The position numbers were made by a program, and so were the translations under genes. A stretch of DNA of 64,000 bases. Origin: Micrococcus endophyticus. GTDB lineage: Bacteria; Actinomycetota; Actinomycetes; Actinomycetales; Micrococcaceae. The notes beneath the pieces are model-generated. The model was not told the origin of the DNA and searched no databases. It was given only the letters and a program-made list of their open reading frames with translations. Location of the stretch: the NCBI RefSeq assembly GCF_014205115.1, contig NZ_JACHMW010000001.1, positions 1,488,001 to 1,552,000 on the forward strand. The letters are read 5' to 3'. Positions 5,804 through 30,637 of the stretch are shown piece by piece; the first letter of the stretch is position 1, and every line of letters starts with the position of its first letter.

Positions 5804-7734
<1,931 letters not shown>

Positions 7735-10761: not shown

Positions 10762-12713
10762 GCCGCGGTCCCGCCGTCGGAGCCGGGACGTCGGGTGCGG
10801 AGGAGGGCCGGGCGGCGGTAGCGCGCCATGCCCTCGAGCGCCCCGACGTGGGCACCGACGGTGTACGCCCAGGCGAGGGCCCGCCCGCGGTCGCGCTGAA
10901 GGAACGGCCACATCGGCATGTGTCGCGAAATCGCGAAGACCGACGCCGTCACGCTGGGGACGCTCATTCCCCGGTCTCGGTACCGCGTCCAGAGATACAT
11001 GCGACCACGCTGTTGGTTTCGTTGCTGCCGGAAAATCGCGGCAGGAGTCGTCCGCAGCCGGTAGTACACGACCGCGCCGACAGCCTGAACGACGGTGAAA
11101 CCAGCTTCCTGAGCCCGCCAGACGAAGTCGGTCTCCTCCGACCCACCGGGATACGCGAGGTCCATGCCTCCGAGTTCGAGGTAGTCATCTCGACGGATGG
11201 CAAAATTGTTGCCCGGGACCGTCGCAAGGTAGCCGGCGAATCCGTCGGAGATCGTCTCTATCCGAGGGGAGTCCTCGGTGTCTTGGAGATCCTGTGCCGG
11301 GTCGATCCGATAAGCCGCCAAGACGTCCACATCATTGAATCGGCTGTGCTCCAGGACGCCGCGGGCGACCACCTGAGGCCCCGAGGTGACGGCCCGGTAG
11401 AGCTCACCCACCCAACGATCGCCGACAAAGTCATCGGCGTCGCAGAACAACAACACGTGGCCTCGGGCCAGACGTGCCCCGACATTTCTCGCGTGCGACG
11501 CGCTGGGGACACCGGATGCGTCGACAACCCGGACATGGAACGGTGCCGGGTGAGAGAGAGCGATCTGTGCGGTCCGGTCGTCGCTGCCGTTGTCGGCCAC
11601 GACGACTTCGAAGAGCGGGGCGTCGCACTGGGCGGCGAGAGAATCGAGCTGTTCGGCGATCCAACTCTCAGCATTGCGGGCCGGGATGACCACGCTGGCT
11701 ACGGGGACCTCTTCGCTGGTCTCCCGGGCCCCTGCCGCGTCTGCTTGTGAGAATGCAGAGGAATCAGCTCGCCTGTAGCCCAGCCCGATCTGCGGCTGGG
11801 GGCCGCGTCTCATCCACCGGTACTCCACACGACCCGCCGCGGCTCCCGCCGCGATCTGGGCACGAAGCCGCACCCCTTCCCAGTCCGGAGTCGTGCAGCC
11901 GAGGGCCATCAGAGCAGCGCTGGCCCCCGTTCGTACGAATTCCACCCACGGGTTGGGAAAATGGGACTGCCGTCCGAGCTCGTACCGGGTGGTGACGAGG
12001 CTGTGAGCCTTGGCCGATCGCCGAGCGAGGCGGGTCCGGACCCGCATGTCCCACTTGCCTCGGTAAGCGATCCGGACGGCTGCAGCCCCGTCCACGCGGA
12101 TACCTTTGAGGTGCGCTCGCACGCCGAAGTCGTTGTCTTCATAGACAGTTCCCAGGGAGTGATCGAATCCACCGACCCGTTCGAACACCTCCCGCGTCAC
12201 ACCGAAGTCTCCCCCCATCAGCACGGGAAACGCGTTCCGGAGATCCCCTGGCACCGGCGCATGCCATTCGTCGCTGTCATCGAAGGCGCACCGGGCGCCT
12301 TCGACGCCCTCGCGCATCTGCTCATCGGTCATGAACGGTGCGCCGCCGGACCACAGGTCCGAGGATTCGAAGGCCCGAGCACCATTGCGCACCCACCACC
12401 GGGACACCACATCGTCCGCGTCGGCGAACATGAGGAGATCGGCGTGAGCATGCGCCGCCCCCACGTTTCGTGCGAATCCCGGGCCTTGGTGCTCGGGTGC
12501 GCTAACCAGACGCAACGGGTATGAGACCTCCCGAGCCAGCCGGTGGACCACGGAGGCAGTTCCGTCGGTGGAGGCGTTGTCCACGACCACGACCTCGTAG
12601 GAAGGAGCTCCGCTCTGAGCGTCCAGGGCCTCCAACTGCAGAGGGAGGAAGCGCTCGGCATTGAAGGCGGGGATGATCACGCTGATTTCTGGCAGCGCGC
12701 TTGTCTGGCTCAC
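10758..12713 (-). CDS. Tandem-domain glycosyltransferase (two GT2 domains)
   Basis: 651 residues holding two complete GT-A domains. The first starts [18 protein letters not shown], with [11 protein letters not shown] and the DxD-type [12 protein letters not shown]. The second begins near residue 340 ([18 protein letters not shown]), with [11 protein letters not shown] and [12 protein letters not shown]. Each copy also keeps a GGFD or GGMD acceptor-loop motif, so both could be active, perhaps adding two sugars in turn. The start is GTG 12713, with TAGGAT six bases upstream and only a weak Shine-Dalgarno. The A+T content looks higher by eye than in the housekeeping genes, suggesting transfer. 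Confidence 0.85.
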
Positions 12714-12719
12714 AGCTCG

Positions 12720-12725
12720 ATCCTA
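12720..12725 (-). promoter_or_regulatory. TANNNT -10 box (leaderless) for the double GT2-galE unit
   Basis: TAGGAT on the minus strand ends six bases before GTG 12713. Confidence 0.45.
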
Positions 12726-12730
12726 TCCCG

Positions 12731-12736
12731 GTAGGG
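12731..12736 (+). promoter_or_regulatory. Possible -10 box for rfbA
   Basis: TAGGGT lies about 52 bases before ATG 12788 in the 74-base divergent gap. No clear -35 is seen. Confidence 0.3.
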
Positions 12737-12787
12737 TGCCCGGTAGACACGCACTCACCGAGCGTTGAAGGGACGTCGAAGTCGCAT

Positions 12788-13657
12788 ATGAAAGGCATCA
12801 TCCTGGCCGGCGGCACCGGCTCCCGGCTGCACCCCATCACCCATGGCATCTCGAAGCAGCTCGTGCCCGTCTATGACAAGCCGATGATCTACTACCCGCT
12901 GTCCACGCTGATCTTGGCGGGCATCAGCGACATCCTGGTCATCACCACCCCGCACGACGCGCAGCAGTTCCAGCGGCTCCTGGGCGACGGCTCCCAGTTC
13001 GGGATCTCGCTCAGCTACGTCCAGCAGCCCTCCCCCGACGGCCTGGCACAGGCGTTCATCCTCGGGGAGGACCACATCGGCGGCGAGCATGTCGCGCTCG
13101 TCCTGGGGGACAACATCTTCTACGGCCCCGGAATGGGCCAGCAGCTGCGTCGTCACACCCAAGTCGACGGAGCCACCGTGTTCGGCTACTGGGTGGCAGA
13201 CCCCAGCGCCTATGGCGTGGTGGAGTTCGACGACGCCGGCAAGGCCGTCTCACTGGAGGAGAAGCCTGAGGAGCCCAAGAGCAACTATGCGGTGCCCGGG
13301 CTGTACTTCTACGACAACGACGTCGTCGAGATTGCGAAGAGCCTCAAGCCGTCGGCTCGCGGCGAGCTGGAGATCACCGACGTGAACCGCACCTACCTGG
13401 AACGCGGCACCCTGAACGTAGAGGTCCTCCCCCGCGGCACCGCATGGCTGGACACTGGCACCTTCCATGACCTGAACGACGCCTCCAACTTCATCCGCAC
13501 CATCGAGTCCCGTCAGGGCCTCAAGGTCGGCTCTCCCGAGGAGGTCGCCTGGCGGCAGGGCCTTCTCACCGACGACGAGCTGCGCGAGCGCGCCGAGCCG
13601 CTCGTGAAGTCGGGGTACGGACGGTACCTCCTGGAGCTGCTCGAGTCCCCTCGCTGA
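12788..13657 (+). CDS. rfbA: Glucose-1-phosphate thymidylyltransferase
   Basis: A 289-residue first enzyme of dTDP-L-rhamnose synthesis, joining dTTP and glucose-1-phosphate. [19 protein letters not shown] is the nucleotide-binding signature, followed by [22 protein letters not shown] carries the metal-binding Asp, and [10 protein letters not shown] is the C-terminal conserved block. Length is normal. With rfbB and rmlCD it completes the pathway, although it sits on the opposite strand about 7 kb away. GAAGGGA lies upstream of ATG 12788. Confidence 0.96.
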
Positions 13658-16800: not shown

Positions 16801-17838
16801 TCATAGGGACAGGTCATCCAGGAGCTCGGCGACGGCGGCGCGGCCGGCCTCGGGTGAGAACAGCGACGCCCAGCGGCGCCGCTGGGAGTGGGCCACCGCG
16901 CCCAGATCGCCCGCTCGTACCGCCCGCAGGCAGTCCGCGAGCGCGGCAGCGTCCCGCTGCGGAAAAACGAAGGGGTGATCGTTGCCGACCACCTCGGGAA
17001 CGGCCCCCGCATCGGAGGCCACCACCGGAACGCCCGCGGCCATCGCCTCGGCCGTCACCAGGCCGAAGACCTCGGCCCACTGCGACGGCACGGCCAGCAC
17101 GTCCACGGAAGCCAGGAACTCGGCGGTGTCCTGCCAGCCGAGCACCTGGACGTCCTCACCCGCCGCCTTCAGGGCGGTAGCAAGCCGCTCGGCCTCGTCC
17201 TCCGCCACGAACCGGCTCTCCCCCGCGACGCGGACCACGAAAGCACCCGGGTCGGTCTTCCGCAGCAGCGCGACGGCCTCGAGCAGGGTCACGATGCCCT
17301 TGTCTTCGGACAGCCGGCCGAGGAAGCCCACGGTCACCGGCTCAGCGGCATCGCGGGCCCGCCCTGCCTGCGGCGTCGTCGGACCCGGAACCCAGTCGTG
17401 GAGCACGCGGGCCCCGCGGATGCGGTCCGCCGCGAATCGGGACGGCGCGAGGACCGCGAGTGCGCCGGGACGCGCCAGGGCGGAGAACACGCGCAGAAGC
17501 GGCTTCTCGGGCACCTGGTGCAGGTGCACGATCCGGCGCGGCCGGCCGGCCAGCGCCGTGGCCGGCAGCAGCCCGTTGCACCAGGCGACGTCGTCGCCGC
17601 CGCGGCCGCGGTCCCAGGCCCGGAGAGCGCGCATATAACCCAGTCGTCCGGGCCCACCCACGCGGACCACGTCGAAGCCGTCCGCGGCCAGGCGATCGGC
17701 GGTCTCGGCCGGGTGGGCCGGGGCCACGACGCTCACGTCCCGCCCCAGCTCGCGCAAGGCCGTGGCGAGGTGGTGGAGCATCACCTCGCCGCCGCCCACC
17801 TCGCCCTGGTTCGCCAGGATCCAGATGCGGCCGGTCAT
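16801..17838 (-). CDS. Glycosyltransferase family 4 protein
   Basis: 345 residues. It opens RIWILANQGEVGGGEVMLHHL, a GT4 N-terminal nucleotide-sugar fold. The donor half has VTVGFLGRLSEDKGIVTLLEA and PSQWAEVFGLVTAEAMAAGV, with the conserved E-x7-E. ATG 17838 overlaps the upstream TGA (ATGA, 17835-17838). Specificity cannot be inferred. Confidence 0.88.
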   Translation of the reverse strand: MTGRIWILANQGEVGGGEVMLHHLATALRELGRDVSVVAPAHPAETADRLAADGFDVVRVGGPGRLGYMRALRAWDRGRGGDDVAWCNGLLPATALAGRPRRIVHLHQVPEKPLLRVFSALARPGALAVLAPSRFAADRIRGARVLHDWVPGPTTPQAGRARDAAEPVTVGFLGRLSEDKGIVTLLEAVALLRKTDPGAFVVRVAGESRFVAEDEAERLATALKAAGEDVQVLGWQDTAEFLASVDVLAVPSQWAEVFGLVTAEAMAAGVPVVASDAGAVPEVVGNDHPFVFPQRDAAALADCLRAVRAGDLGAVAHSQRRRWASLFSPEAGRAAVAELLDDLSL

Positions 17839-18965
17839 CCCGAGGTCTTCCCCACCCGGCGCCCGAGCACCTCGAGGGTCGCCTCGGCGGTCGCCCGGGC
17901 CATGGTCGCCACATCGCCCACGCGCACCTCGCCCGGACCCTCGACCGCGGCCCGCATGACGGCGTCGGCGATGGCCGCCGGAGTGGTCTCGTGGACCAGG
18001 CGCTCGGGCGGCAGGATCTCCCCGTTGCCGCCCACGTCCGTGGCGACGGCGGGCAGGCCCGCGGCCGCGGCGTCGAGCAAGGTGTAGCTGAGGTTCTCCC
18101 ACGCGGAGAGCTGCACCAGCACGTCGTGCTCGGCCATGGCCCCCCACGGTTCCACGAAACCGGGCAGGTCCACCGCATCCGCGACACCGAGCGCCTCGGC
18201 CTGGGCGCGCAGCTCCCCCTCCAGGGGGCCAGCGCCGGCCAGCGTCAACCGCGTCCCGGGGTCCCGCTCCAGCAGGGCGGGCAGCGCGGCGATCAGCCGG
18301 TCGAGGTTCTTCTCGGGCGCCAGCCGAGACAGGGAGAGGAGCCGCAGCCCCTCCCCCGGTGTGCGCCGCTGCCCCGCGGCCGCGGCCCGCACCGCGGACA
18401 CATCCACCCCGTTGCGCCCGACGGTGATAGGCGCCCCCGTGCCCCACTTGCGCCGGAGCACGTCCGCGGTGGACTGCGCCACCGCAATCACGACGTCCGT
18501 GCCGCGCAACCGGGCGCGGTGCGCGGCGTTCTTCACCCGGGCCGCCGCGGCGCGGTTGTACAGCCCATCGTCCGGGGCGATCCCGTGCTCGGTGCTGAGC
18601 AGCGCCGGCGCACCGGCCCGCTGCCGGGCCCGCCCCGGGCCGAACGCGGCGAACGCCGCGAGGTCGGCGTAGGCCAGGTGCGTGTGGACCGCGGCCGGGC
18701 GCAGGGTGCGCACCGCCGTCCGGAGCGTCCGCACCGAGGCGGCCAGGCCGGCGTCGGGACCGACGTCCCCGGTGAACACCGCCGCACCCTGCTCGCGCAG
18801 GCGCTCGGCGAGCGGGCCCTCGGGGCACAGCACCGCCAGACGCAGGCCGGGCAGGCCCACGCGCGCGACGTCGAGGACGTGCCGGGCCACGCCGCCGAGG
18901 TCGGCGACGGGCACCACCCAGAGCGTCAGCGGGGCCGGGGCGGGCGTCGTCACGTCCGGGGTCAC
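17835..18965 (-). CDS. Glycosyltransferase family 4 protein
   Basis: 376 residues with a GT-B fold. LWVVPVADLGGVARHVLDVA forms the N-terminal acceptor domain. LRLLSLSRLAPEKNLDRLIA and QLSAWENLSYTLLDAAAAGL form the donor domain. The start is GTG 18965, which overlaps the TGA of the NeuB fusion gene (GTGA); the upstream extension is shadow sequence. The coupling to the NeuB fusion suggests, but does not prove, use of a related product. Confidence 0.85.
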   Translation of the reverse strand: MTPDVTTPAPAPLTLWVVPVADLGGVARHVLDVARVGLPGLRLAVLCPEGPLAERLREQGAAVFTGDVGPDAGLAASVRTLRTAVRTLRPAAVHTHLAYADLAAFAAFGPGRARQRAGAPALLSTEHGIAPDDGLYNRAAAARVKNAAHRARLRGTDVVIAVAQSTADVLRRKWGTGAPITVGRNGVDVSAVRAAAAGQRRTPGEGLRLLSLSRLAPEKNLDRLIAALPALLERDPGTRLTLAGAGPLEGELRAQAEALGVADAVDLPGFVEPWGAMAEHDVLVQLSAWENLSYTLLDAAAAGLPAVATDVGGNGEILPPERLVHETTPAAIADAVMRAAVEGPGEVRVGDVATMARATAEATLEVLGRRVGKTSG

Positions 18966-21205
18966 AGCCACTGCTCCAGGCGGTCCAGGGCCGTCCAGAA
19001 GCCCTCGCCGTTGTTGATGTGGCCCTGCCAGATCTCCGGGATGAAGCTCACCCCGGGGGCCAGGCGGTCCAGCTGCTCGCACAGCACGGGCCAGTCCACG
19101 TCACCCTCCCCGATCTGCGGTCCCTCCCCGTCCACACCGGTGGCGTCCACCAGGTGCAGGTGGATGGTGTGCGGGGCCAGCTTCTCCACCATCTCCGAGA
19201 AGGGGATCCCCAGGAACGTGGCCGAGAGCTTGGAGTGGGAGATGTCCAGGCACAGGGGCACCCCCGTGGCCTCCACGAACGCCACGGTGTCGTCCGGGTC
19301 CATGAAGAGGTTGTGGTACTGCTGACCGCCCATCAGCCACGGGAACGGCGGCAGCGTCTGCGCGGCGATCCGAATGCCGGAGGTGTCCAGGCGCTTCACG
19401 GCCTCGGCGATGCGCTCATACTTCGGCAGCCGCTCCTCCGGGCGGATGTGCCGATCCAGGGTGAAGCCGCCCATGGTGATGACCATGATGGGCGCCTCCT
19501 CCTTCGGGAACCAGCGCTTGAGGTCGCGGGTGATGTCGATGGTGCGCTGCACCTCGGCGATCGAGCGCTCCCACACGGCGTCGTCGTCGCTGGCCAAGTC
19601 CACGAGGAAGTCACCGGAGAAGATGTCCGGCAGGTGGGTGGTGAAGCCCATCGGCATGGGCTCGGTGAACACCGAGTCGATGTCGATCTCGAGGTCCTTG
19701 TAGGAGAAGTGGAACTCCAGGAAGTCCGGGGTGCAGTCCTTCGTCAGCGCCGCGACGTCGTGGTAGCGCACCGGCAGGCCCCAGGGGCGCCGGAACTGAA
19801 ACTGGCGCCCGGTGGGCACCGTGTCCGTGAGGTCGCCGGCGAAGAAGAAGTCGCCCTCGGCCATGTCGCGCTGGATGGTGCGGCCCACGAGGCGGGGCAG
19901 CTCGTTGGGCTGCAGGCCGCGGCCGGGCGACTTCACGGTGACGGCGTCCTCCGTGACGGTCTCCCCCGCGGCCAGCGGCCGGGCGGCCACGAGCGACTTG
20001 GCCAGGTTGATGCGGTTCATCGCCTCGCCCGTGGAGACCACGCGCTCGTTCCCGACGCCGATCGACTCCTCGATGTCCCGCGTCTGCCGGACCATCTGCG
20101 CGAACTCCTCCGGCAGGAGGGAGACCTTGTGGTCGTTGCCCTCGAGCCCCCGGTCCACGGTGAAGTGCTTCTCGATGATCGAGGCGCCGCGCGCCACGGC
20201 GGCCAGCGGCACGTGGAAGCCGCGCTCGTGGCCGGAGTAGCCGACCGGGGTCTGCGCGATCTCGGCCAGGCGGTCCAGGTACGCGAGGTTCACGTCCTTG
20301 TAGGGGGCGGGGTACGTGGACTGGGCGTGCAGCATCGCGAAGGGGACGCCGAAGGAGCGCACCAGGGCCACCGACTCGCGGATCTCCTCCTCCCGGGACA
20401 TGCCGGTGGAGAGCACCATCGGCAGGCCGGAGGCGGCCGCGTCCCGCAGCAGACCGTGGTTCGTCAGATCCGCCGAGGCGATCTTCACGCCGTCCACCGG
20501 GTACTGGGCGAGCACCCGCATGGACGGGGCGTCCCACGGGGTGCACATCAACGCCACGCCCGCGTCCCGGACGTGGTCGAACACCCGCACCATGTCGTCC
20601 GCGGACAGGGAGAACTTGGCCAGCTCGTCCAGGGTGCGCTGGGCCCCCAGGTCCTCACCGGCGGTGGCCGCGCCGGACTGCCGGTACAGGGCGTCCATGT
20701 CCCTCAGCTGGAACTTCACGGCGTCCGCGCCCGCCTCCACGGCCAGGTCCACCAGCTCGCGGGCCAGATCCACGCTGCCCTGGTGGTTGTTGCCGATCTC
20801 CGCGATCAGGAAGGCCGGGCGGCCGGGGCCGATCCGGTGCTCGCCGATGCGCAGCTCGGATTCCCGGTTGATGGCCAGGGCGGCGAGTCGGCCTCGCTCG
20901 TCCAGCAGGGGCAGGTGCAGGGCGCCGGCGGGCAGGGCGGCGAGCACTTCGGCGGGGGACGCGCCCACGGGACCGGTGGCGGGCGTCCGGTTGGCGGCCT
21001 CGACGGCGGCCACCTCCAGGGAGGCTCCCGGATTGGCCAGAAGCCACCGGCGGAAGTCGCCGTCCGTGAGCGAGCCGGCCAGGAAGCCGTGCGAGTCCAC
21101 CACGAAGACGATCCGCTCGCGGTTGTCCGTCATCTTCTGCAGGGCCACGAGGAGGGAGTCCTCCGGGAAGACGAGGTACGGAGTGAGGTGGCGTTCGGTG
21201 ATCAC
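18962..21205 (-). CDS. Three-domain protein: CBS pair, NeuB-type nonulosonate synthase with SAF domain, xylose isomerase-like TIM barrel
   Basis: 747 residues. Residues 1-118 resemble a CBS pair (RIVFVVDSHGFLAGSLTDGD). Residues 125-390 are a NeuB/sialic acid synthase barrel that condenses PEP with a sugar. It has EIGNNHQGS (136-144), KFQLRDMD, CTPWDAPS, YSGHE (323-327) and the EKHFT-D block (345-351). A SAF/antifreeze-like domain follows (about 397-460). Residues about 480-747 form a sugar isomerase/endonuclease-IV-type TIM barrel with LCLDISHSK (652-659), IHLHLVDATG and FIPEIW. GTG 21205 overlaps the CMP-synthetase stop. Substrates are inferred only: hexose or HexNAc plus PEP. Confidence 0.85.
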   Translation of the reverse strand: MITERHLTPYLVFPEDSLLVALQKMTDNRERIVFVVDSHGFLAGSLTDGDFRRWLLANPGASLEVAAVEAANRTPATGPVGASPAEVLAALPAGALHLPLLDERGRLAALAINRESELRIGEHRIGPGRPAFLIAEIGNNHQGSVDLARELVDLAVEAGADAVKFQLRDMDALYRQSGAATAGEDLGAQRTLDELAKFSLSADDMVRVFDHVRDAGVALMCTPWDAPSMRVLAQYPVDGVKIASADLTNHGLLRDAAASGLPMVLSTGMSREEEIRESVALVRSFGVPFAMLHAQSTYPAPYKDVNLAYLDRLAEIAQTPVGYSGHERGFHVPLAAVARGASIIEKHFTVDRGLEGNDHKVSLLPEEFAQMVRQTRDIEESIGVGNERVVSTGEAMNRINLAKSLVAARPLAAGETVTEDAVTVKSPGRGLQPNELPRLVGRTIQRDMAEGDFFFAGDLTDTVPTGRQFQFRRPWGLPVRYHDVAALTKDCTPDFLEFHFSYKDLEIDIDSVFTEPMPMGFTTHLPDIFSGDFLVDLASDDDAVWERSIAEVQRTIDITRDLKRWFPKEEAPIMVITMGGFTLDRHIRPEERLPKYERIAEAVKRLDTSGIRIAAQTLPPFPWLMGGQQYHNLFMDPDDTVAFVEATGVPLCLDISHSKLSATFLGIPFSEMVEKLAPHTIHLHLVDATGVDGEGPQIGEGDVDWPVLCEQLDRLAPGVSFIPEIWQGHINNGEGFWTALDRLEQWL

Positions 21206-21975
21206 AGGGCGTCTCCCAGGGTGGTGGTGGAGGTGCCGTGGAGCTGAGTCCGGTCCGGCACCCGCTGGAGGACCTTGTGCACCGCCAGGTACTGGTCCAT
21301 CTGCTGCTCGGCGAGGGCGAAGTCCAGCTCGGTGTCGATGTCCACGCCCTCGAGGTCGTCGAGCTCGAACATCCCGATCCGCCCGCCCAGGCGGTTGTGC
21401 AGCTCGTCGTACACCCACGGGCGGGTCACGTACAGCGAGCCGTTCTCGCGGAACCGCAGGTCCGTGCGGTCCATGTCCTGCCGCCGCTTGCGGTGGGCCA
21501 CGTCGAAGTCGCACACCGGCGGGTCGGCCGGATCCGCGGCGTGGCGCCACAGGAAGGGCGAGACCGGCACGACGCCGACGAGCGAGTCCACGCCCGTCTC
21601 CCGGAACTGCGCGACGGCGCGGTCCAGGGTGCCGGGCAGGCGCAGCGGGCTGGTGGCCTGCAGGAGCATGACGCCCTCGGGCTCGACGCCGGCCGCGCGC
21701 TCGGCGGCGAGGGCGTGATTCACCACGGGCTCGGTGGGGGTCTCGTCCTGCGCCAGCTCCGCCGGGCGCAGGCCGGGCACGTCCGCGCCGTAGCGGAGGG
21801 CGACCTCGGCGATCTCGGCCGAGTCCGTGGAGACCACCACGTGCAGGTCCTCCTCCGCCTCGAGGGCGGCCTGGATGGTCCACGCCACGAGCGGGTGGCC
21901 GCCCAGGAGGCGGATGTTCTTGCCGGGCAGCCCCCGGGACCCGCCGCGCACGGGAATGACGCACAGGATGCTCAC
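21202..21975 (-). CDS. CMP-nonulosonate (acylneuraminate) cytidylyltransferase-like protein
   Basis: 257 residues of the NeuA/KdsB-type family, activating a nonulosonic or related acid with CTP. VIPVRGGSRGLPGKNIRLL is the nucleotide-binding signature. LLQATSPLR, VSTDSAEIAEVA and GVDIDTELDFALAE are the other family blocks. It starts at GTG 21975 overlapping the upstream stop (GTGA). Its partner is the NeuB-domain protein immediately downstream. Whether the sugar is sialic, legionaminic or Kdn-like cannot be seen. Confidence 0.88.
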   Translation of the reverse strand: MSILCVIPVRGGSRGLPGKNIRLLGGHPLVAWTIQAALEAEEDLHVVVSTDSAEIAEVALRYGADVPGLRPAELAQDETPTEPVVNHALAAERAAGVEPEGVMLLQATSPLRLPGTLDRAVAQFRETGVDSLVGVVPVSPFLWRHAADPADPPVCDFDVAHRKRRQDMDRTDLRFRENGSLYVTRPWVYDELHNRLGGRIGMFELDDLEGVDIDTELDFALAEQQMDQYLAVHKVLQRVPDRTQLHGTSTTTLGDAL

Positions 21976-23042
21976 GCGGACTCCTCTCCAAAGATGTCAC
22001 GGGCGATGGCCCGCGCAGGCTCGATCACGGGGCGGACCGGGGCGGGAGTGCGCTCGGGCTGCTCGGAGGCCGAACGCCCGGGCGTCCATGGCGTCATGCC
22101 GTAGCGCTCCCAGAACTCTCGGAGCCAGGCGGGAGGGGCGGTGTGGTACACCCAGCCGCCGCGTCCCTGGGCTGCCGCTTCGAGGACACCCGTCGAGAAC
22201 AGTGCGACGACGTCGGGTCCCACCTCGGGCAGAGGACGCCCGCTGGTCTCGAAGCGGGTGCCGCCGCGGTGCATGAGGCGGTGGGTGGCTCGGCTCAGCA
22301 TGTCCCGTTCCGAAGGGTGCGGTCGGTAGAGCACGTGCGGCTCGGCACGAAGGAACGCCAGCGTCTGCTGAGTGGCGGGCCACCGGCCCAGCTCTCGCCC
22401 GTGGAGCTGTCCCAGGAACACCGTCGGGCCCGGCTGGGCGGCCGGAAAATAGGGGTCCGCGGCTTCCCACAGCATCTGGGAGCCCACTACCCTGACGGTC
22501 CGCCCCGGACGGCCACCGGTCCAGAAGGCCCCGTCCTCGTGCGAAAACGCGTACAGCGTCACCTCGTCAGGCAGAGGCGGCGCGAACGGTGTGAGCAGGC
22601 CGTGTTGCACGACGACGTATTCCACGCCCCGTGCCGCGGCCCACTCCAGGGCCAGTTCCCCGGCCCGCAGGTAGTGGCCGAGCGAAAGCACCGTGCCGAC
22701 CGTGCCGTCGAGGGCGGACAGGTCGTCAGCGGAGGTGATCGACCGGTCTTCGACGGGGTCTCCGACCACGGCCTGGACCGCAGGGACCAGGTGCGGAGGA
22801 CACAGGACCGCCACGTTGACACGCGGCCCCAACGCCACCGGGCGAAGCCCGGCCGCGATGCCGGAAAGCGTCGCGGAGTCGAGGGCAGCGAGCACCGTCG
22901 GCGCCGTTCCGTAGAGAAGGAGACGAAGGGCGCGGTCTGCTGGACGGCCGCGACCGCGCACTGCAGCGACGGCGCGCCGGAGCGTGGAGGGCCGTGCCCA
23001 CCGACGCCAGTCCGCGAGGGAATCGGGATGGTTCAGGCCCAC
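21972..23042 (-). CDS. Putative GT-B glycosyltransferase with HP motif (candidate nonulosonate transferase)
   Basis: 356 residues, not confidently assigned to a named family. It contains YVVVQHGLLTPFAPPLP and LYRPHPSERDML, an HP motif like that in bacterial sialyl- and polysialyltransferases and in some CDP-glycerol or Kdo transferases. VVALFSTGVLEAAAQG follows, resembling the conserved Ser-containing donor segment. Position directly upstream of the CMP-sugar synthetase makes a CMP-sugar transferase plausible. Start GTG 23042 overlaps the previous gene's end by ten bases. No membrane segment seen. Confidence 0.5.
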   Translation of the reverse strand: MGLNHPDSLADWRRWARPSTLRRAVAAVRGRGRPADRALRLLLYGTAPTVLAALDSATLSGIAAGLRPVALGPRVNVAVLCPPHLVPAVQAVVGDPVEDRSITSADDLSALDGTVGTVLSLGHYLRAGELALEWAAARGVEYVVVQHGLLTPFAPPLPDEVTLYAFSHEDGAFWTGGRPGRTVRVVGSQMLWEAADPYFPAAQPGPTVFLGQLHGRELGRWPATQQTLAFLRAEPHVLYRPHPSERDMLSRATHRLMHRGGTRFETSGRPLPEVGPDVVALFSTGVLEAAAQGRGGWVYHTAPPAWLREFWERYGMTPWTPGRSASEQPERTPAPVRPVIEPARAIARDIFGEESA

Positions 23043-24019
23043 AGCGCTTCCACCTCTCGCATCCGGTGCACGAGGGTGTGTTCGGCCAGGGCCCGGCGTC
23101 GCCCTGCTTCGGCGATGCCGCGGGCCCACTTCGGTTCGCGGATCGCCCGCTCCGCGTGCTCGGCCAATTCGTCGCCATCGGCGAACACCAGGACTTCTCT
23201 GCCCGGCTCGAAGTGCACGTCGACGTCCGCGCGGTCCACCAACTGGAGGGCGCCCACTCCACACGCTTCGAAGGTGCGCATTGTGAAGCCGTCCTGGTGA
23301 CCGTGAATATTGACAGTGGCCTCGCTGCCGGCCATCACCCCGTATGCCTCGTCACGCGCCAAGGTGCGTCCCGCAGGAACACCCGGAGGTCGCCAGTGAC
23401 GCGACGCGAGCACATCCGCGGGATGCCTGGACCAATCCCGCCCATAGGCGCGCACAGGGATGCCGGCGGCGACGAGACCGGCCAGCAGGGCTTTGCGTTG
23501 CGGGTAACGGGCCCCGATGAATGTCACAGCACCGGTCGGGCGCCGGTGGAACGCCAGCAGTGAGTCGTGGCCCAGCGGCAGGTGACGCACCGTATCCGCC
23601 GTTCCCGCCAGCGACGCCGCGTCGGCCGCACTGTAGGTGGCGACGACGGGCATCGCGGCGAGCTGTTCGCGGGTATAGGCCATGCGGTCGATCTCGTCGT
23701 AGAGCCAAGTCACCCGAGGCCCGTTCCACCGGTCAACGGCAGCCCACCAATCGTCCCCCAGACGATCGCCCTTCACCACCAGGAGGGCGTCCGGGCGTTC
23801 ACGATTCAGAACCGCCGCCGCACGCCGGCCCTCCCAGCCCGCCCAGCGTGCGGTCCACCTCCCCGGCAGGTCGTGCAGAGCCTTGTTGCGGACGCGCTCA
23901 GCCAGAGTGTCTGCCGCGTCGTACGCGTGCACGGAGACGCCATGGCCCAGGTGTTCCAGGGCGGCACCCATGGCGGCCAGATAGCCGTGGAATCGAGGCC
24001 CGACGATGAGGACGCGCAT
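23033..24019 (-). CDS. CgeB-like glycosyltransferase
   Basis: 328 residues. MRVLIVGPRFHGYLAAMGAAL starts a GT-B N-domain. WLYDEIDRMAYTREQLA and VTFIGARYPQRKALLAGL match the CgeB-type family seen in surface-glycan loci. VNIHGHQDGFTMRTFEACGV is the C-terminal donor region. ATG 24019 lies three bases after the upstream stop, with GGAGAG before it. Sugar unknown. Confidence 0.72.
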   Translation of the reverse strand: MRVLIVGPRFHGYLAAMGAALEHLGHGVSVHAYDAADTLAERVRNKALHDLPGRWTARWAGWEGRRAAAVLNRERPDALLVVKGDRLGDDWWAAVDRWNGPRVTWLYDEIDRMAYTREQLAAMPVVATYSAADAASLAGTADTVRHLPLGHDSLLAFHRRPTGAVTFIGARYPQRKALLAGLVAAGIPVRAYGRDWSRHPADVLASRHWRPPGVPAGRTLARDEAYGVMAGSEATVNIHGHQDGFTMRTFEACGVGALQLVDRADVDVHFEPGREVLVFADGDELAEHAERAIREPKWARGIAEAGRRRALAEHTLVHRMREVEALWA

Positions 24020-24021
24020 GC

Positions 24022-25083
24022 TCAACTCTCCGTGAGCCCGCGCTCGGTCAGCTCTTCCAGTGCACGGTCCCACAGCCGCGGATCAGCGGCCTCCAAGTCC
24101 CATGAATGGGAGATGAAGTCCGCGACAGCCTCCTGGGAGGTCAGGCGTGGGCGCGGCATGCCCAGGCTCCACGCGTGCGTCATGTCCGCGCATGCATGGT
24201 CGATGTCACCTGCCCGGTGGACCTCCACATGAGTGATCTCGACCGCTGCACCGCGGCCCGCAGCTCGCGCGGTCTCGGCCAGCTCGTCCAGATCCATACG
24301 GGCCCCTGTGCCGACGTTGGCGATCACGGGCTCTCCGCGGCGGGGGGCTTCTAGCGCCCAGACGATGGCCGCGGCGACGTCCGACACATGCACGAAGTCC
24401 CGCGTCGCCGTGCCGTCCCCGTAGACGGTGAGCGGCAGCCCCGCCTTGAGGCGGGCTAGGAACGCCGCCAGCACACCCGTGTAGGGGTTGTGGAGCGCCT
24501 GCCCCAAACCGACGACGTTCTGCGGGCGCAGAATGGTGAGGCGGCCGTCCGCGAGGGCGGTGCGGGCAATCTCCTCGGCCTCGGACTTGGTTTCCCCGTA
24601 CACGGAGAGGGGCGCGTGCGGCTGGTCTTCGCCCGAGGGCACGAACAGCCCGTCCGGGCCGTAATCCCTGCCGTCCGAGGACGCCATCGGCGACGTGGCC
24701 ACGAGGCCCTCGCCGTACACGGCGCGAGAGCTCAAGAACACGAGAGGAACTCCTCGCGAAGCGGCGAACTCGGCTGCGAGCCGCGTCCCCTCCACATTGA
24801 CCCGTCGGTAGCGGTCCTGCTCGTACATCGACTGAGCCGTCCCTGTCTCCGCCGCCAGGTGGATGACACCTCTGACCTCCGGCAGATCTGCCCAGGACGC
24901 CGGATCGCTCACGTCGCGGCGCAGGACGTCCCCGGGGAACCGCGCGGCCGCCCCTTGAGGATCGGCGTGCACCTGCTGTTCGAGTGTGTCAAGCGCGACC
25001 ACCTCGTCGCCGCGTCGCGTCAGCGCCCGAGCCACGTACTGACCGATGAAACCCGCCCCACCGGTGATGAGGTACTTCGTCAT
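24022..25083 (-). CDS. NAD-dependent epimerase/dehydratase family protein
   Basis: 353 residues, an extended SDR. GGAGFIGQYVARALTRRGDE binds NAD(P). FLSSRAVYGEG and the YGETKSEAEE catalytic Tyr/Lys are intact. TRDFVHVSDVAAAIVWAL is the usual substrate-binding strand. It may be a nucleotide-sugar 4-epimerase, reductase or dehydratase; the exact reaction cannot be told. It could make an unusual sugar for this operon. ATG overlaps the acyltransferase stop (ATGA). Confidence 0.8.
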   Translation of the reverse strand: MTKYLITGGAGFIGQYVARALTRRGDEVVALDTLEQQVHADPQGAAARFPGDVLRRDVSDPASWADLPEVRGVIHLAAETGTAQSMYEQDRYRRVNVEGTRLAAEFAASRGVPLVFLSSRAVYGEGLVATSPMASSDGRDYGPDGLFVPSGEDQPHAPLSVYGETKSEAEEIARTALADGRLTILRPQNVVGLGQALHNPYTGVLAAFLARLKAGLPLTVYGDGTATRDFVHVSDVAAAIVWALEAPRRGEPVIANVGTGARMDLDELAETARAAGRGAAVEITHVEVHRAGDIDHACADMTHAWSLGMPRPRLTSQEAVADFISHSWDLEAADPRLWDRALEELTERGLTES

Positions 25084-25661
25084 GACTGCTGCTCTTCTCT
25101 GTTCGCTGGGGTGTGGTCGACACCGTTCTTGAGAATCCTCGCAGGGACACCCGCGACGACCGCTCCGGCAGGGACATCCTTCGTGACGACGGACCTCGCT
25201 CCGACCACAGCGCCTGCTCCCACTGTGACTCCCCCAAGAATCGTGGCGCCCTGGCCGACGAAGACGTCATCACCGATCACGATCGGTGCGCCAGGCGTGA
25301 TCGCCATCCCTGCCGACGGGTCGTGTCCTCCGTTCCCAATGTGAACGTCGTCTGTCACCATCACGCCTCGCCCAAGTACCACTGAGCCGACTGCGTGGAG
25401 ATGCACCCTGTGGCCCAAATAGACGCGATCCCCGATGCGTAGATCCCCGCGTTGCTCCGCCGCAAGCCAGACTCCGGGGTGGAAAGCGCAATGTGCTCCC
25501 ACTGAGATGCGCTCAGCACCCTGGACTTTCAATGGGCCAACCATCACGCTGCCCTGGCCCCAGTCGCGGAAGGCTCGGCGGTACAGCGTCGCAGACAGCA
25601 CCTGTCCGCGTTTCCATGCGAGCCGAGGTGGCAACTCCACGAGGCGAGAGGCGAATGTCAT
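25080..25661 (-). CDS. Hexapeptide-repeat acyltransferase (left-handed beta helix)
   Basis: 193 residues. It has repeated hexapeptide units (ISVGAH, LRIGDR, IVIGDD, VTVGAGAVVGARSVV) and the end VPAGAVVAGVPARILK, typical of WbbJ/LacA-type O-acetyltransferases. IGNGGHD carries the likely catalytic His. It probably O-acetylates a sugar of the glycan or an intermediate. Both ends overlap neighbours by four bases. Confidence 0.85.
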   Translation of the reverse strand: MTFASRLVELPPRLAWKRGQVLSATLYRRAFRDWGQGSVMVGPLKVQGAERISVGAHCAFHPGVWLAAEQRGDLRIGDRVYLGHRVHLHAVGSVVLGRGVMVTDDVHIGNGGHDPSAGMAITPGAPIVIGDDVFVGQGATILGGVTVGAGAVVGARSVVTKDVPAGAVVAGVPARILKNGVDHTPANREEQQS

Positions 25662-26645: not shown

Positions 26646-26712
26646 GGGACGGACTGGCGATGACCCGTGCCGAGCGGTGGGGCGGCCCCGTGGCCGCCCG
26701 CGCGGCTCTCAG

Positions 26713-26718
26713 TACACT
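26713..26718 (+). promoter_or_regulatory. Possible -10 box for the HprK-PqqD gene
   Basis: TACACT with a poor -35 (TGGCCG at 26691-26696, 16-base spacing). It lies about 70 bases before ATG 26782. Confidence 0.35.
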
Positions 26719-26781
26719 GACCGGACAGCCACGGGAAGGAAAGGGTGGTCCATGCCCGGCGCCCAGGGGGAGGACGAAGCC

Positions 26782-27879
26782 ATGAGCGAGACCACCGCGT
26801 TGCGCATCGGCACCGGTCTCGATGCCGTGACGGTCAGCGGCCTCACAGGAGACGAGCGCGCGGAGGTCATCGAGTCCTGGGCCCGGTGTGGCGTGGAGGC
26901 CGTGGAGCCGCCCACCGACGCGGATGCGCACCGCGACGCCGACACCGCGCGTCCGTGGCTCCAGTGGCACGAGGACCTGGTGTTCCTGGCGACCTCACGG
27001 ACGATCGAGTCCGCCCGCGGCACCCACCTGCTGTTCCATGCCGCCTGCCTCGCCGCACCGGACACCGGCGCGGCGATCGTCCTGGTGGCCGCGTCCGGCA
27101 CGGGCAAGACGACGGCCACCCGCCGGCTCGGCCCCCACTTTGCCTATCTCACCGACGAGACGGCGATCATCGACCCGGACAGCCTGGCCGTCACGCCCTA
27201 CCCCAAGCCGCTGTCCGTGCTGGAGGCCCGGGGGGTGCGGCCCAAGACCCAACGGGGCCCGGACGACCTGGGCCTCGGCCCGACCCTCCCCGCCGCCCGG
27301 CTGGCCCGGATCGCCGTGCTGGACCGTGTGCGCGATCCGGCAGGCCCGGTGCTGCCGCGGGCGGAGGCCATGGAACTCGTGGCCGCGCTCAAGGAGCTCG
27401 TCCCCCAAACATCCTCCCTCTCCCGACTCCCCCGAGGCCTCGTGACGCTCTGCCGCGTCCTCGACGCGGCCGGCGGCGCTCAACGCCTCGTCTACGCCGA
27501 GGCGGAGGACCTGCGGGACGTCGTCGCGGACCTGCTGGCGGCCCCGCCCACGCCCGTCACCCCCGCCTGGGAGGCGCTCACCGACGAGGAGCTGCGGGCC
27601 TCCGCCGGTGCAGCCGGCCCGGGCGCGGGGGCCCGCTGCGCCGTCGACGACGGCATCCTGACCGACCAAGGCCACCTGGTCCTGCTCGCCGCGGACCGCC
27701 TGGTCATGCTCGAGGGTCTGGGCCCGGCCGTCTGGCTCCTGCTGGACGAGCCCCGGACGGCCGCCGACGTGGTGGCCCATCTCCGCGCCGAAGGAGCCGT
27801 GCCCGAGGACGCCGAGGCCCGGGTGGCCGCCGCCCTGGCCGCACTGGCCGAGCACGGGCTCGTCGACGTCATGCTCTGA
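26782..27879 (+). CDS. HPr kinase-like P-loop domain fused to a PqqD-like domain
   Basis: About 365 residues. The middle holds a P-loop AASGTGKTT (103-111) then LTDETAII, as in HprK/serine-kinase-like domains. The C-terminal 75 residues (GILTDQGHLVLLAADRLVML, then AVWLLLDEPRTAADVV) look like a PqqD/RiPP-recognition domain. Such proteins usually act in peptide modification, yet no radical SAM, cyclase or obvious precursor lies nearby. ATG 26782 has GGAGGA seven bases upstream; ATG 26752, with AAGGAAAGG, is an alternative. It diverges from the operon. Confidence 0.75.
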   Translation: MSETTALRIGTGLDAVTVSGLTGDERAEVIESWARCGVEAVEPPTDADAHRDADTARPWLQWHEDLVFLATSRTIESARGTHLLFHAACLAAPDTGAAIVLVAASGTGKTTATRRLGPHFAYLTDETAIIDPDSLAVTPYPKPLSVLEARGVRPKTQRGPDDLGLGPTLPAARLARIAVLDRVRDPAGPVLPRAEAMELVAALKELVPQTSSLSRLPRGLVTLCRVLDAAGGAQRLVYAEAEDLRDVVADLLAAPPTPVTPAWEALTDEELRASAGAAGPGAGARCAVDDGILTDQGHLVLLAADRLVMLEGLGPAVWLLLDEPRTAADVVAHLRAEGAVPEDAEARVAAALAALAEHGLVDVML

Positions 27880-27978: not shown

Positions 27979-28836
27979 TTACCCTCTCCGCTCCGTGGAC
28001 AACTCTCGATGAAGTCCACGCAGCCCATCTTCAAGGAGGTCCTGGACCGCGACGATCTTCGAGTCGTCTGGCGTCAAAGCACGCTCGAGGGCGTCGTCTA
28101 CGGTGGCGGTTTCCAGGTCCACGAACCGGTCGCCAGGATCCAGACCAATGGCGGTGTGATGGTCGCGGAACTTGTGATCGGATCCCAGGAGAATCGGCGT
28201 GGGGAGCCCCCATACTGCTGGGACACCGTAGGCGTCCGCAACGATCAGGCCGTGCAGGGACGACGTGATGATCGCCGTGCAGGCACCGATTTGGCGGCAC
28301 ACTGTGTGGGGCGAACGGCGAACGTCGATGACCTCGATCCGGTTGTCGGCGCGCAAGCACTCGACCCACTCGCTGCCCCGATGGGATAGGTGCGGAATCA
28401 AACCGATGTGCGGGACGCGGGCTGATCTGCCGAACACCCGTGGAGCAAGCAGACCCAGGTCACCCAGAGGAGTGTCGGGTGGGGCCCCCGCACCGACACG
28501 CGTCAGCTCCCCCCGCACGGCAGTGAAACGCGCGTCGCGGAGAGGCCTCTCCAATGTCTCCAACGAGCCTGAGCCGAGCACATACCCGTTGAAGCTCGAA
28601 TCCTGCCAGCCAAGAACTGACCCAACGCCGACGGCTCGAACGGGTTTCCTGCCGGGACGACGGGGAAGAATCCCGTAGGCCGGAAGAATCCATTGAGTCA
28701 GGCGATCTCCGAAGTTCGGGTGGAGGTCAAACCAAGAGGTTTCCAACCACTGTCCGTGCCCCCTTAACCGTACGGCTTCAGCCGCCACATGGGCGTCATC
28801 GACGAGCCTCGCCAACCTCTGGCGCGGTTTCGTCAT
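27979..28836 (-). CDS. Polysaccharide pyruvyltransferase family protein
   Basis: About 285 residues of the PF04230 type. WFDLHPNFGDRLTQWILPAYG is the N-terminal NxGD-type block. IGLIPHLSHRGSEWV precedes a C-terminal ITSSLHGLIVADAYGVPAV, the family's SxHG motif. Members transfer pyruvate from PEP onto sugars as a ketal. ATG 28836 is used because a TATAGT -10 box sits at 28859-28864; a GTG at 28860 falls inside that box. It is convergent with the HprK-PqqD gene. A+T richness by eye suggests transfer. Confidence 0.78.
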   Translation of the reverse strand: MTKPRQRLARLVDDAHVAAEAVRLRGHGQWLETSWFDLHPNFGDRLTQWILPAYGILPRRPGRKPVRAVGVGSVLGWQDSSFNGYVLGSGSLETLERPLRDARFTAVRGELTRVGAGAPPDTPLGDLGLLAPRVFGRSARVPHIGLIPHLSHRGSEWVECLRADNRIEVIDVRRSPHTVCRQIGACTAIITSSLHGLIVADAYGVPAVWGLPTPILLGSDHKFRDHHTAIGLDPGDRFVDLETATVDDALERALTPDDSKIVAVQDLLEDGLRGLHRELSTERRG

Positions 28837-28858
28837 GCCCCTCAACCGATGAAGACCC

Positions 28859-28864
28859 ACTATA
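28859..28864 (-). promoter_or_regulatory. -10 box for the pyruvyltransferase-like gene
   Basis: TATAGT on the minus strand, 22 bases before ATG 28836, five of six matches to TATAAT. Confidence 0.4.
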
Positions 28865-28901
28865 TCGGCGCCCTTTCGCTGGATTTCGCCCCCTGCGGGC
28901 G

Positions 28902-29654
28902 TCATTGGCCGCCCCAGTTGCTCGGGGGCCAGATGGTCACGAACACCTCGCCCACCACGTCCTCCCGGGCGACGAAGCGGGCGCAGCCCTCCGCCTGCTC
29001 CGCGGGGAGGCCGCGGCATCCGATCACGGAGTCGGCGGAGTTGGAGCGGTGGTCGCCCAGCACGAGCATCGAGTCCTCCGGCACGGTCACCGGGCCGAAG
29101 CAGCGCGCGGACATGACGTCCGACTCGCAGTCCAGCCGGCCCGGGGCGAACGGCAGGTCGTTGTGGAGGTAGGGCTCCTCCAGAGGCTCCCCGTCCACCG
29201 TCACGCGGCCCTCGGAGGTGCAGCACTCCACGGTCTGGCCCTCGGTGCCGAGGACGCGCTTGACCAGTGCCTGGTCGTGCGAGCGACCGATGCCGGTGAT
29301 GTCGCCGAAGGTGCGGACCGCGTTCTCCACGGGGCCCTCCGGCGGCAGAGGCTGCGCCCAGTCCTCGTTCGCGTTGAACACCACGACGTCCTGGTCCTCG
29401 GCCATGCCGTCGGGGTACGCGGTCCGGTTGACGAGCATCCGGTCCCCCACCTCGAGGGTCTGCTCCATGGAGCCGGAGGGGACCGAGTAGACCTTCACCC
29501 ACAGGGCCTGCACCACGGCGACGACGGCGATCGCCACCACCACGTTCAGCAGCACGGAGGCCCAGCCCGGCAGGCGGGCCCGCCGACGCTCCGGGGCGGC
29601 GACGGACCCGCCGTCGCCGTCCTCCCCGCGAACGGGCTCGACGCGCTCGGCCAT
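28902..29654 (-). CDS. lepB: Signal peptidase I
   Basis: 250 residues. One N-terminal transmembrane segment (about 32-52) precedes the catalytic SVPSGSMEQTL, with nucleophile Ser62. LVKRVLG holds the general-base Lys132. VLGDHRSNSADS is box E. It cleaves signal peptides on the outer face of the membrane. ATG 29654 is two bases after the prs stop, so it is coupled to prs. This is an unusual partner; it marks the island boundary. Confidence 0.94.
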   Translation of the reverse strand: MAERVEPVRGEDGDGGSVAAPERRRARLPGWASVLLNVVVAIAVVAVVQALWVKVYSVPSGSMEQTLEVGDRMLVNRTAYPDGMAEDQDVVVFNANEDWAQPLPPEGPVENAVRTFGDITGIGRSHDQALVKRVLGTEGQTVECCTSEGRVTVDGEPLEEPYLHNDLPFAPGRLDCESDVMSARCFGPVTVPEDSMLVLGDHRSNSADSVIGCRGLPAEQAEGCARFVAREDVVGEVFVTIWPPSNWGGQ

Positions 29655-29656
29655 GC

Positions 29657-30637
29657 TCAGGCGTCGCCGTCGAACAGGCTGGTGACCGAGCCATCCTCGA
29701 AGACCTCGCGGATCGCGCGGGCGATCAGAGGGGCGATCGAGAGCACCGTGAGGGTCTCGAAGCGCTTCTCCTCCAGGATGGGCAGGGTGTTGGTCACCAC
29801 GACCTCACGGGCACCGCACTCGCCGAGACGCTGGGCGGCCGGCTCCGAGAACACCGCGTGCGTGGCGGCGATGATGACGTCCTTCGCGCCGGCCTCCTTG
29901 AGGATGCTCACGGCGCCGGCGATCGTGCCGCCCGTGTCGATCATGTCGTCGATCAGCACGCAGACGCGGCCCTCGACGTCCCCGACCACGGTCTTGGACT
30001 CGGCCTTGTTCGGGACGGTGAGGTCCCGGCTCTTGTGCACGAAGCCCAGCGGCACGCCGCCGAGGCGGTCCGCCCACTGCTCCGCCACGCGCACGCGGCC
30101 GGTGTCCGGGGACACCACGGTGACCTCCTCGCCCTCCACCCGGGTGCGGATGTAGTCCGCGAGCAGCGGGATGGCGAACAGGTGGTCCACCGGGCCGTCG
30201 AAGAAGCCCTGGATCTGCGCGGTGTGCAGGTCCACGCTCATCACACGGGAGGCGCCGGCGGTCTTGTAGAGGTCCGCCACCAGGCGGGCCGAGATCGGCT
30301 CGCGGCCGCGGCCCTTCTTGTCCTGGCGGGCGTACGGGTAGAACGGGGAGACCACGGTGATGCGGCGGGCGGAGGCGCGCTTCATGGAGTCCACCATGAT
30401 CAACTGCTCCATGAGGTGGTTGTTCAGCGGCGCCGGGTGGGACTGGATGATGAAGACGTCCTTGCCGCGCACCGACTCGCCCGAGCGCACGTAGATCTCG
30501 CCGTTGGCGAAGTCGTACGCGCTCATGGGCAGCAGCTCCGTGCCCAGCTCCTCGGCGATCTCCTGCGCGAGCTCCGGGTGGGCCCGGCCCGTGGCCAGCA
30601 CCAGTCGCTTGTCCTCGCTGCGGCTCAGCTCCGTCAT
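29657..30637 (-). CDS. prs: Ribose-phosphate pyrophosphokinase
   Basis: 326 residues making PRPP from ribose-5-phosphate and ATP. VSPFYPYARQDKKGRGREPI is the catalytic flexible loop region. SVDLHTAQIQGFFD and the PRPP-binding CVLIDDMIDTGGTI are intact. AGAGGAC upstream supports ATG 30637. A TAGGAT box 100 bases upstream could drive prs-lepB. In related actinobacteria prs lies between glmU and rplY; glmU is still next door here. Confidence 0.97.
   Translation of the reverse strand: MTELSRSEDKRLVLATGRAHPELAQEIAEELGTELLPMSAYDFANGEIYVRSGESVRGKDVFIIQSHPAPLNNHLMEQLIMVDSMKRASARRITVVSPFYPYARQDKKGRGREPISARLVADLYKTAGASRVMSVDLHTAQIQGFFDGPVDHLFAIPLLADYIRTRVEGEEVTVVSPDTGRVRVAEQWADRLGGVPLGFVHKSRDLTVPNKAESKTVVGDVEGRVCVLIDDMIDTGGTIAGAVSILKEAGAKDVIIAATHAVFSEPAAQRLGECGAREVVVTNTLPILEEKRFETLTVLSIAPLIARAIREVFEDGSVTSLFDGDA

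Follow-up and report, generated by a model that had tools for sequence, protein, structure and literature searches.

A CBS–NeuB–TIM barrel fusion family that lacks the cap arginine of N-acetylneuraminate synthase: a candidate synthase of a Kdn-type acid in Micrococcus endophyticus

We analyzed a 64,000-nucleotide stretch of the Micrococcus endophyticus genome (NCBI RefSeq assembly GCF_014205115.1, contig NZ_JACHMW010000001.1, positions 1,488,001 to 1,552,000; hereafter the window), in which a single minus-strand gene encodes a CBS part, a NeuB barrel with its SAF cap and a xylose-isomerase-like triosephosphate isomerase (TIM) barrel in one chain. This fusion was confirmed to represent a real and conserved family that is rare but widespread, in which the metal ligands of NeuB are kept and residues of the acceptor site are changed. 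Our analysis favors, with a little more than even confidence, a NeuB-type 3-deoxy-ulosonic-acid synthase, which would condense phosphoenolpyruvate (PEP) with a manno-configured sugar lacking a 2-N-acetyl group, the most likely product being 2-keto-3-deoxynononic acid (Kdn) or otherwise a close relative, to be activated with cytidine monophosphate (CMP) for a surface polysaccharide. The gene and its parts, all on the minus strand, are as follows.

18962..21205, minus: fusion gene, CBS–NeuB–SAF–TIM barrel, 747 residues (open frame; Pfam; single frame in 78 of 82 loci).
20864..21205, minus: CBS part, residues 1–114, second repeat degenerate (one Pfam repeat; profile comparison of its halves).
20018..20854, minus: NeuB barrel, residues 118–396 (Pfam NeuB, 2e-72; residues of meningococcal NeuB mapped).
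19820..20017, minus: SAF cap, residues 397–462, with Ser426 at the position of Arg314 (Pfam SAF, 3e-10).
18965..19819, minus: xylose-isomerase-like TIM barrel, residues 463–747 (Pfam AP_endonuc_2; 27 invariant columns in 51 sequences).

Translation from the GTG start yielded 747 residues with no internal stops. The open frame can be extended upstream to 22000; however, 747 residues is the likely length, because a start at 21205 gives a 4-base overlap with the end of the upstream gene and because residues 1–2 (Met, Ile) are identical in all six sequences of the family alignment. A profile search of the protein, a kind of check that an earlier reading of the sequence alone (the sequence-only reading) had proposed, placed all four domains above the curated Pfam cut-offs: CBS (residues 10–56, E = 2.1e-5), NeuB (PF03102, residues 151–385, E = 2e-72), SAF (PF08666, residues 403–458, E = 3e-10) and AP_endonuc_2 (residues 526–743, E = 3.1e-20). 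The single chain described in that reading was accordingly borne out, except that its 'CBS pair' consists of one repeat called by Pfam and a degenerate second one (residues ~61–114); comparison of the two halves by profile gave a probability of 74% (E = 2.7e-5) in local mode and 6–10% in global mode. The CBS part would most likely adjust the activity of the synthase to nucleotide levels. No second NeuB match was found in the same genome (one contig, 2.71 Mb) at an E-value of 0.001.

We mapped 16 residues of meningococcal NeuB onto the fusion protein, taking the roles of the metal- and PEP-binding residues partly from general knowledge and partly from a published study (PMC6795526). Twelve of them are identical, both metal-binding histidines included (Glu25, Lys53, Gln55, Thr110, Lys129, Ser132, Tyr186, Ser213, His215, Glu234, His236 and Asp247 in meningococcal numbering). 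The changed positions are Asn74, which falls in a gap, Glu134 (Asp246 in the fusion protein), Asn184 (Ser296), Arg314 (Ser426) and Phe288, which corresponds to Asn400 at a site where the alignment is unsure. In other words, the metal ligands and most PEP-site residues are retained, and the loss of such ligands, which the sequence-only reading had named as evidence that would count against it, was not seen apart from the change of Asn184 to Ser. The protein thus resembles NeuB/SiaC of Neisseria meningitidis (PDB 1xuu and 4ipi) in its barrel and cap, its metal ligands and most of its PEP site, and differs from it at Glu134, Asn184 and Arg314 and in having a CBS part and a second barrel, neither of which is present in the meningococcal enzyme.

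To follow these positions across the family, we used a set of 82 loci, consisting of the best 80 from a search of named genomes that used a six-sequence alignment (at least 591 pattern matches, at least 569 relatives), a copy on an Ensifer plasmid and the window locus; residue counts cover 78 of them, L055, L078, L086 and L092 being left out. A published study of the meningococcal enzyme describes Arg314 as the sole residue of the cap with a direct part in the active site and as one that may place the N-acetyl group. At this position, the 78 fused proteins have Ser (72), Gly (3), Cys (2) or Ala (1) and never Arg, and the cap arginine typical of TIGR03569 is accordingly missing from the window protein. 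Among 13 stand-alone relatives, two of which carry an annotation (pseI and neuB), Arg was found in all 11 that cover the position (L013 and L014 are gapped there), as it is in the meningococcal enzyme. The loss of Arg314 across the fused family therefore points to an acceptor without an N-acetyl group. All 78 fused proteins have Asp at position 246; this change is weaker evidence because the stand-alone relatives vary there (10 Glu, 1 Asp and 2 Ser).

NeuB and the TIM barrel share a single open frame in 78 of the 82 loci. The exceptions are L055, which has two overlapping frames, L078 and L086, which are incomplete, and L092, which is frame-broken. L055 and L092 are frame-broken copies of the fusion, the latter from a metagenome assembly, and either sequencing error or decay may account for them; L092 was initially a candidate for a genuine two-gene split and was rejected because its copy is frame-broken. 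The fusion recurs far beyond chance: of 58 other near genomes, 8 contain full-length relatives at 61–94% identity. Six of the 11 genomes of the genus, that of the window among them, encode the whole protein, and the TIM barrel was found in 4 of 396 genomes drawn across the phylum (own included), with every match in both samples lying in an open frame of at least 575 residues. Within Enterobacterales, the order of L038, the TIM barrel was found in 2 of 394 genomes, namely that of L038 itself and G165, where it is partial (a frame of 197). A search of phage records returned three matches, all of NeuB only. The loci come from Actinomycetota, Bacillota, Cyanobacteriota, Pseudomonadota, Chlorobiota, Bacteroidota and others. 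No description of the domain order CBS–NeuB–TIM was found in the titles, abstract starts and selected passages of the open-licence literature.

A CBS part was detected in 50 of the 78 proteins by BLAST with that of the window protein, a search that a diverged CBS part could escape; L053 starts at a contig end, and its CBS-less label carries no information. When 67 of the 78 sequences were placed in a tree (near-copies dropped; midpoint rooting for drawing only), the CBS label required four changes, compared with a mean of 19.4 for shuffled labels, and 43 of 44 CBS-fused rows fell into one clade of 45 (support 100/99). Seven CBS-less rows formed the deepest branches under midpoint rooting, and L056, which is counted as CBS-fused, was placed within the sister, CBS-less clade. 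Distances between the NeuB parts and between the TIM parts of the 78 sequences were correlated (0.89, with none of 999 permutations as high), as expected for one unit evolving together.

Linkage to a putative gene for CMP activation provides further evidence. The gene directly upstream of the fusion gene, which overlaps it by 4 bases, is as follows.

21202..21975, minus: CMP-ulosonate-synthetase-like gene (CTP_transf_3, 5.5e-20).

Its best NCBIfam model is PseF, at 125 bits and below the cut-off of 206. This gene had no place in the account given by the sequence-only reading. Members of its cluster were found in 63 of 82 loci, adjoining the fusion in 44 of them, and in 18 of 20 actinobacterial loci. 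Its product would make the CMP-sugar, whose residue the glycosyltransferases of the same gene run would then place into a cell-surface polysaccharide.

A precedent comes from Serratia marcescens, in which, according to the available text of the report, NeuB of the KL1 and KL2 capsules bears an added COG1082 isomerase/epimerase domain and is required for sialic acid production (PMC9000132). Deletion of neuB in a KL1 strain, alone or with neuA, lowered sialic acid fourfold, and complementation restored it (PMC9000132, with a follow-up in PMC12077157, both as far as their accessible parts go), and the KL1 and KL2 polysaccharides contained Kdn and N-acetylneuraminic acid (Neu5Ac) at a ratio of about 20:1 (PMC9000132). 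Like this enzyme, the window protein combines NeuB with an isomerase/epimerase-type domain and is linked to a CMP-synthetase gene, the match being one of domain labels. The term 'CBS' has no occurrence in the available text of the Serratia paper, whereas the window protein has a CBS part, and the Serratia enzyme serves a Gram-negative capsule, whereas the window fusion belongs to an actinobacterial locus. The remark of the sequence-only reading that no product was established for such an arrangement is thus partly answered by the Serratia work. In Streptomyces, the wall teichulosonic acid contains Kdn (PMC11481543), and the genes SCO4873–SCO4882 have been named for this polymer (PMC13011467), in both cases according to the parts of the papers that were available.

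Regarding supply of the acceptor, manA is present in the same genome. A uridine diphosphate N-acetylglucosamine (UDP-GlcNAc) 2-epimerase-family gene was found in 21 of 28 fusion-bearing genomes and was not found in the other seven (G012 and the genomes of L020, L028, L031, L035, L045 and L080), absences that may partly reflect draft genomes, completeness being given for G012 alone (100%). Since seven genomes showed no such gene, the family does not depend on the UDP-GlcNAc 2-epimerase route to N-acetylmannosamine (ManNAc), the only ManNAc route covered by the search. Within the window, no match to a 2-epimerase or aminotransferase family was found among the scanned open reading frames (ORFs), which are a part of its ORFs. 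The earlier statement that no biosynthetic set lies nearby therefore holds for these two families among the scanned ORFs, but a hexapeptide acetyltransferase-like gene is close by, and a 2-epimerase-family gene is located ~455 kb away in the same genome.

The loss of Arg314, the Serratia precedent, the linkage to a CMP-synthetase-like gene, the seven genomes without the 2-epimerase gene and the presence of manA together argue for a Kdn-type product, and the Kdn-like acid that the sequence-only reading had offered as one possibility emerges as the best-supported one. Several observations weigh against this interpretation. The PEP-site residue Asn184 is Ser; the change of Glu134 to Asp is not specific to the fusion; the link to Serratia is one of domain labels and not of sequence, and the Serratia capsule also holds some Neu5Ac; and ManNAc could also be the acceptor here, the window's own genome being among those with a 2-epimerase-family gene. 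The identity of the product is a prediction.

We further considered the role of the second barrel. It has 27 invariant columns among 51 sequences, which argues against a mere ornament, and Asp654, His657, His684, Glu694 and Glu724 are present in 78 of 78 proteins; it is likely an active metal enzyme of the isomerase, hydrolase or phosphatase type. Position 616, which is a metal-site Glu elsewhere in the superfamily, is Gln in 71 of 78 proteins, that of the window included, and Glu in seven. The same seven, which are deep branches (L072, L082, L083, L085, L088, L090 and L091), also have His577, and the other 71 have neither residue. In sugar epimerases of the AP_endonuc_2 family, Glu is expected at the first metal/base position. 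Its replacement by Gln, judged by this mechanism, argues against a two-base epimerase. Among solved structures, the best match to the barrel by profile was MJ1311 from Methanocaldococcus jannaschii (PDB 3wqo, E = 1.1e-11), a chain of 293 residues labeled as uncharacterized, for which no paper was found in the open-licence literature; at the positions of Gln616 and Thr577 of the fusion barrel, it has Glu and His. Alignments with endonuclease IV, UlaE and Hyi of E. coli were weak. An endonuclease-IV-like hydrolase was not adopted as the first-choice reading of the barrel, since UlaE, an epimerase, aligned about equally well. In the Kdn-type synthase that we favor, this metal-dependent barrel would most likely deliver the free acceptor sugar, by isomerization or hydrolysis of a mannose precursor.

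An appreciably less probable alternative is that mannose 6-phosphate is the true acceptor and that the second barrel, instead of supplying the acceptor, comes into play once condensation has taken place, for instance as a Kdn-9-phosphate phosphatase. The known routes to Kdn in Bacteroides thetaiotaomicron and Prymnesium parvum begin in this manner, their Kdn-9-phosphate synthases condensing PEP with mannose 6-phosphate and a separate phosphatase being needed (PMC6200933, in its available text); by description, these differ from the route proposed for the window fusion. It also fits this alternative that no phosphatase domain was matched among the scanned window ORFs and that the barrel profile can be matched, if weakly, to endonuclease IV, a phosphoesterase, at the D..H and H..D motifs. 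However, the residues that would correspond by motif to endonuclease IV ligands, His577 and Glu616, are restricted to the seven deep-branching proteins and absent from the window protein, and the comparable alignment of UlaE means that the comparisons made do not separate an isomerase from a hydrolase.

It is also conceivable, though rather unlikely, that the enzyme uses another non-acetylated sugar as acceptor, such as a deoxysugar or heptose, and yields a different ulosonic acid. That acceptors may vary is suggested by the 28 CBS-less loci, in 19 of which a single cluster accounts for the gene directly upstream (L059–L068, L070, L071, L074–L077, L079, L081 and L093). The one member scanned, from L062, contains CBS and a GHMP kinase, with the heptose kinase HddA as its best model (247 bits, cut-off 600); a CBS match was obtained in 14 of the 19 upstream kinase-type genes (13 by BLAST and that of L062 by Pfam). 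The CBS-less loci also contain an HddC-like cluster (16/28), a GmhA-like SIS cluster (12/28) and a second TIM barrel gene (14/28); the scanned HddC-like and GmhA-like members score below the respective equivalog cut-offs. However, the window belongs to the other class, and in its 51 CBS-fused loci (31 plus 20 actinobacterial) the kinase was found in none, the HddC-like gene in three, the GmhA-like SIS gene in two and the second TIM barrel gene in none.

These results suggest that in the sister class a heptose is either the acceptor or a partner sugar of the same glycan, and a ten-carbon ulosonic acid is possible there; terms for such an acid gave no match in the open-licence literature. More speculatively, NeuB–SAF–TIM proteins in general might be self-contained synthases whose barrel frees a manno-aldose from an activated or phosphorylated precursor. 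In the CBS-fused class this aldose would be mannose, leading to Kdn, and in the heptose-linked class D-glycero-D-manno-heptose, leading to a ten-carbon ulosonic acid not yet described; CBS would be carried either on the synthase or on the adjacent kinase. Bradyrhizose, an O-antigen sugar of Bradyrhizobium, has ten carbons. It was weighed as a candidate for the heptose-linked class and set aside, as 'neuB' is absent from the available text of the paper that proposed an eleven-gene cluster (PMC4743980). L075, a heptose-linked member, is carried by a metagenome-assembled genome of Accumulibacter, and Kdn was reported in small quantity, together with other nonulosonic acids, from an Accumulibacter enrichment (PMC8053191, available text); the enzyme that makes Kdn in the enrichment is not thereby identified.

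Finally, an ordinary synthase of Neu5Ac or of another N-acetylated nonulosonic acid with decorative extra domains is improbable: the closest NCBIfam model is indeed N-acetylneuraminate synthase (TIGR03569), the same genome has a 2-epimerase-family gene and some Neu5Ac accompanies Kdn in Serratia (PMC9000132, available text), but the score of 296 bits lies well under the equivalog cut-off of 400, the N-acetyl-placing arginine is absent from every fused relative, a quarter of the fusion-bearing genomes (7/28) lack the 2-epimerase-family gene and the invariant columns of the second barrel do not suit an ornament.

Members of the family are likely to be named N-acetylneuraminate synthase from their NeuB domain, although they lack the residue that reads the N-acetyl group. 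If the interpretation as a Kdn-type synthase is true, genomes with the fusion should be predicted to make a Kdn-type acid and not Neu5Ac, and the heptose-gene link of the sister class provides a testable hint of a longer ulosonic acid.

The surroundings of the fusion gene indicate a surface-polysaccharide locus. Farther upstream of the CMP-synthetase-like gene lie genes for an unnamed protein, a glycosyltransferase, an NAD-dependent epimerase-family protein, a hexapeptide acetyltransferase-like protein and a family 2 glycosyltransferase; downstream of the fusion gene are glycosyltransferases and then, more distantly, genes with domains for deoxythymidine diphosphate (dTDP)-rhamnose synthesis. 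The features located are as follows.

17835..19082 (ORF bounds, start inferred at ~18971), minus: glycosyltransferase family 4 type gene, directly downstream of the fusion (Pfam Glycos_transf_1, 2e-24; 17 of 20 actinobacterial loci).
21972..23042 (start inferred), minus: unnamed protein that may be the transferase of the CMP-sugar (cluster present in 18 of 20 actinobacterial loci, in 0 of the other 62).
23033..24073 (ORF bounds), minus: glycosyltransferase gene of the same run (Pfam Glyco_trans_1_2, 1.1e-27; 17 of 20 actinobacterial loci).
25080–25661: hexapeptide acetyltransferase-like gene (nearest models are O-acetyltransferases, below cut-off).
4369–5790 and 5832–6863, minus, and 12701–13657, plus: genes with dTDP-rhamnose synthesis domains (RmlC–RmlD fusion type, RmlB type and NTP transferase), flanking glycosyltransferases.
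26677–27879, plus (opposite strand): gene with a PqqD domain (3.3e-9), beside polysaccharide genes.
27979–29694 (ORF bounds), minus: gene whose C-terminal part matches polysaccharide pyruvyl transferase (6.7e-9).

A PADLOC search gave no match. Searches with the unnamed neighbor against Pfam (15 members) and the PDB yielded no glycosyltransferase. In 18 of 20 actinobacterial loci, a member of its family, which is without a Pfam match and has relatives in L015–L025, L027–L029, L031, L080 and L094, immediately precedes the CMP-synthetase-like gene on the upstream side. The family has conserved QHG and RPHP-E motifs reminiscent of transferases of the GT-B type, a likeness confirmed by neither library.

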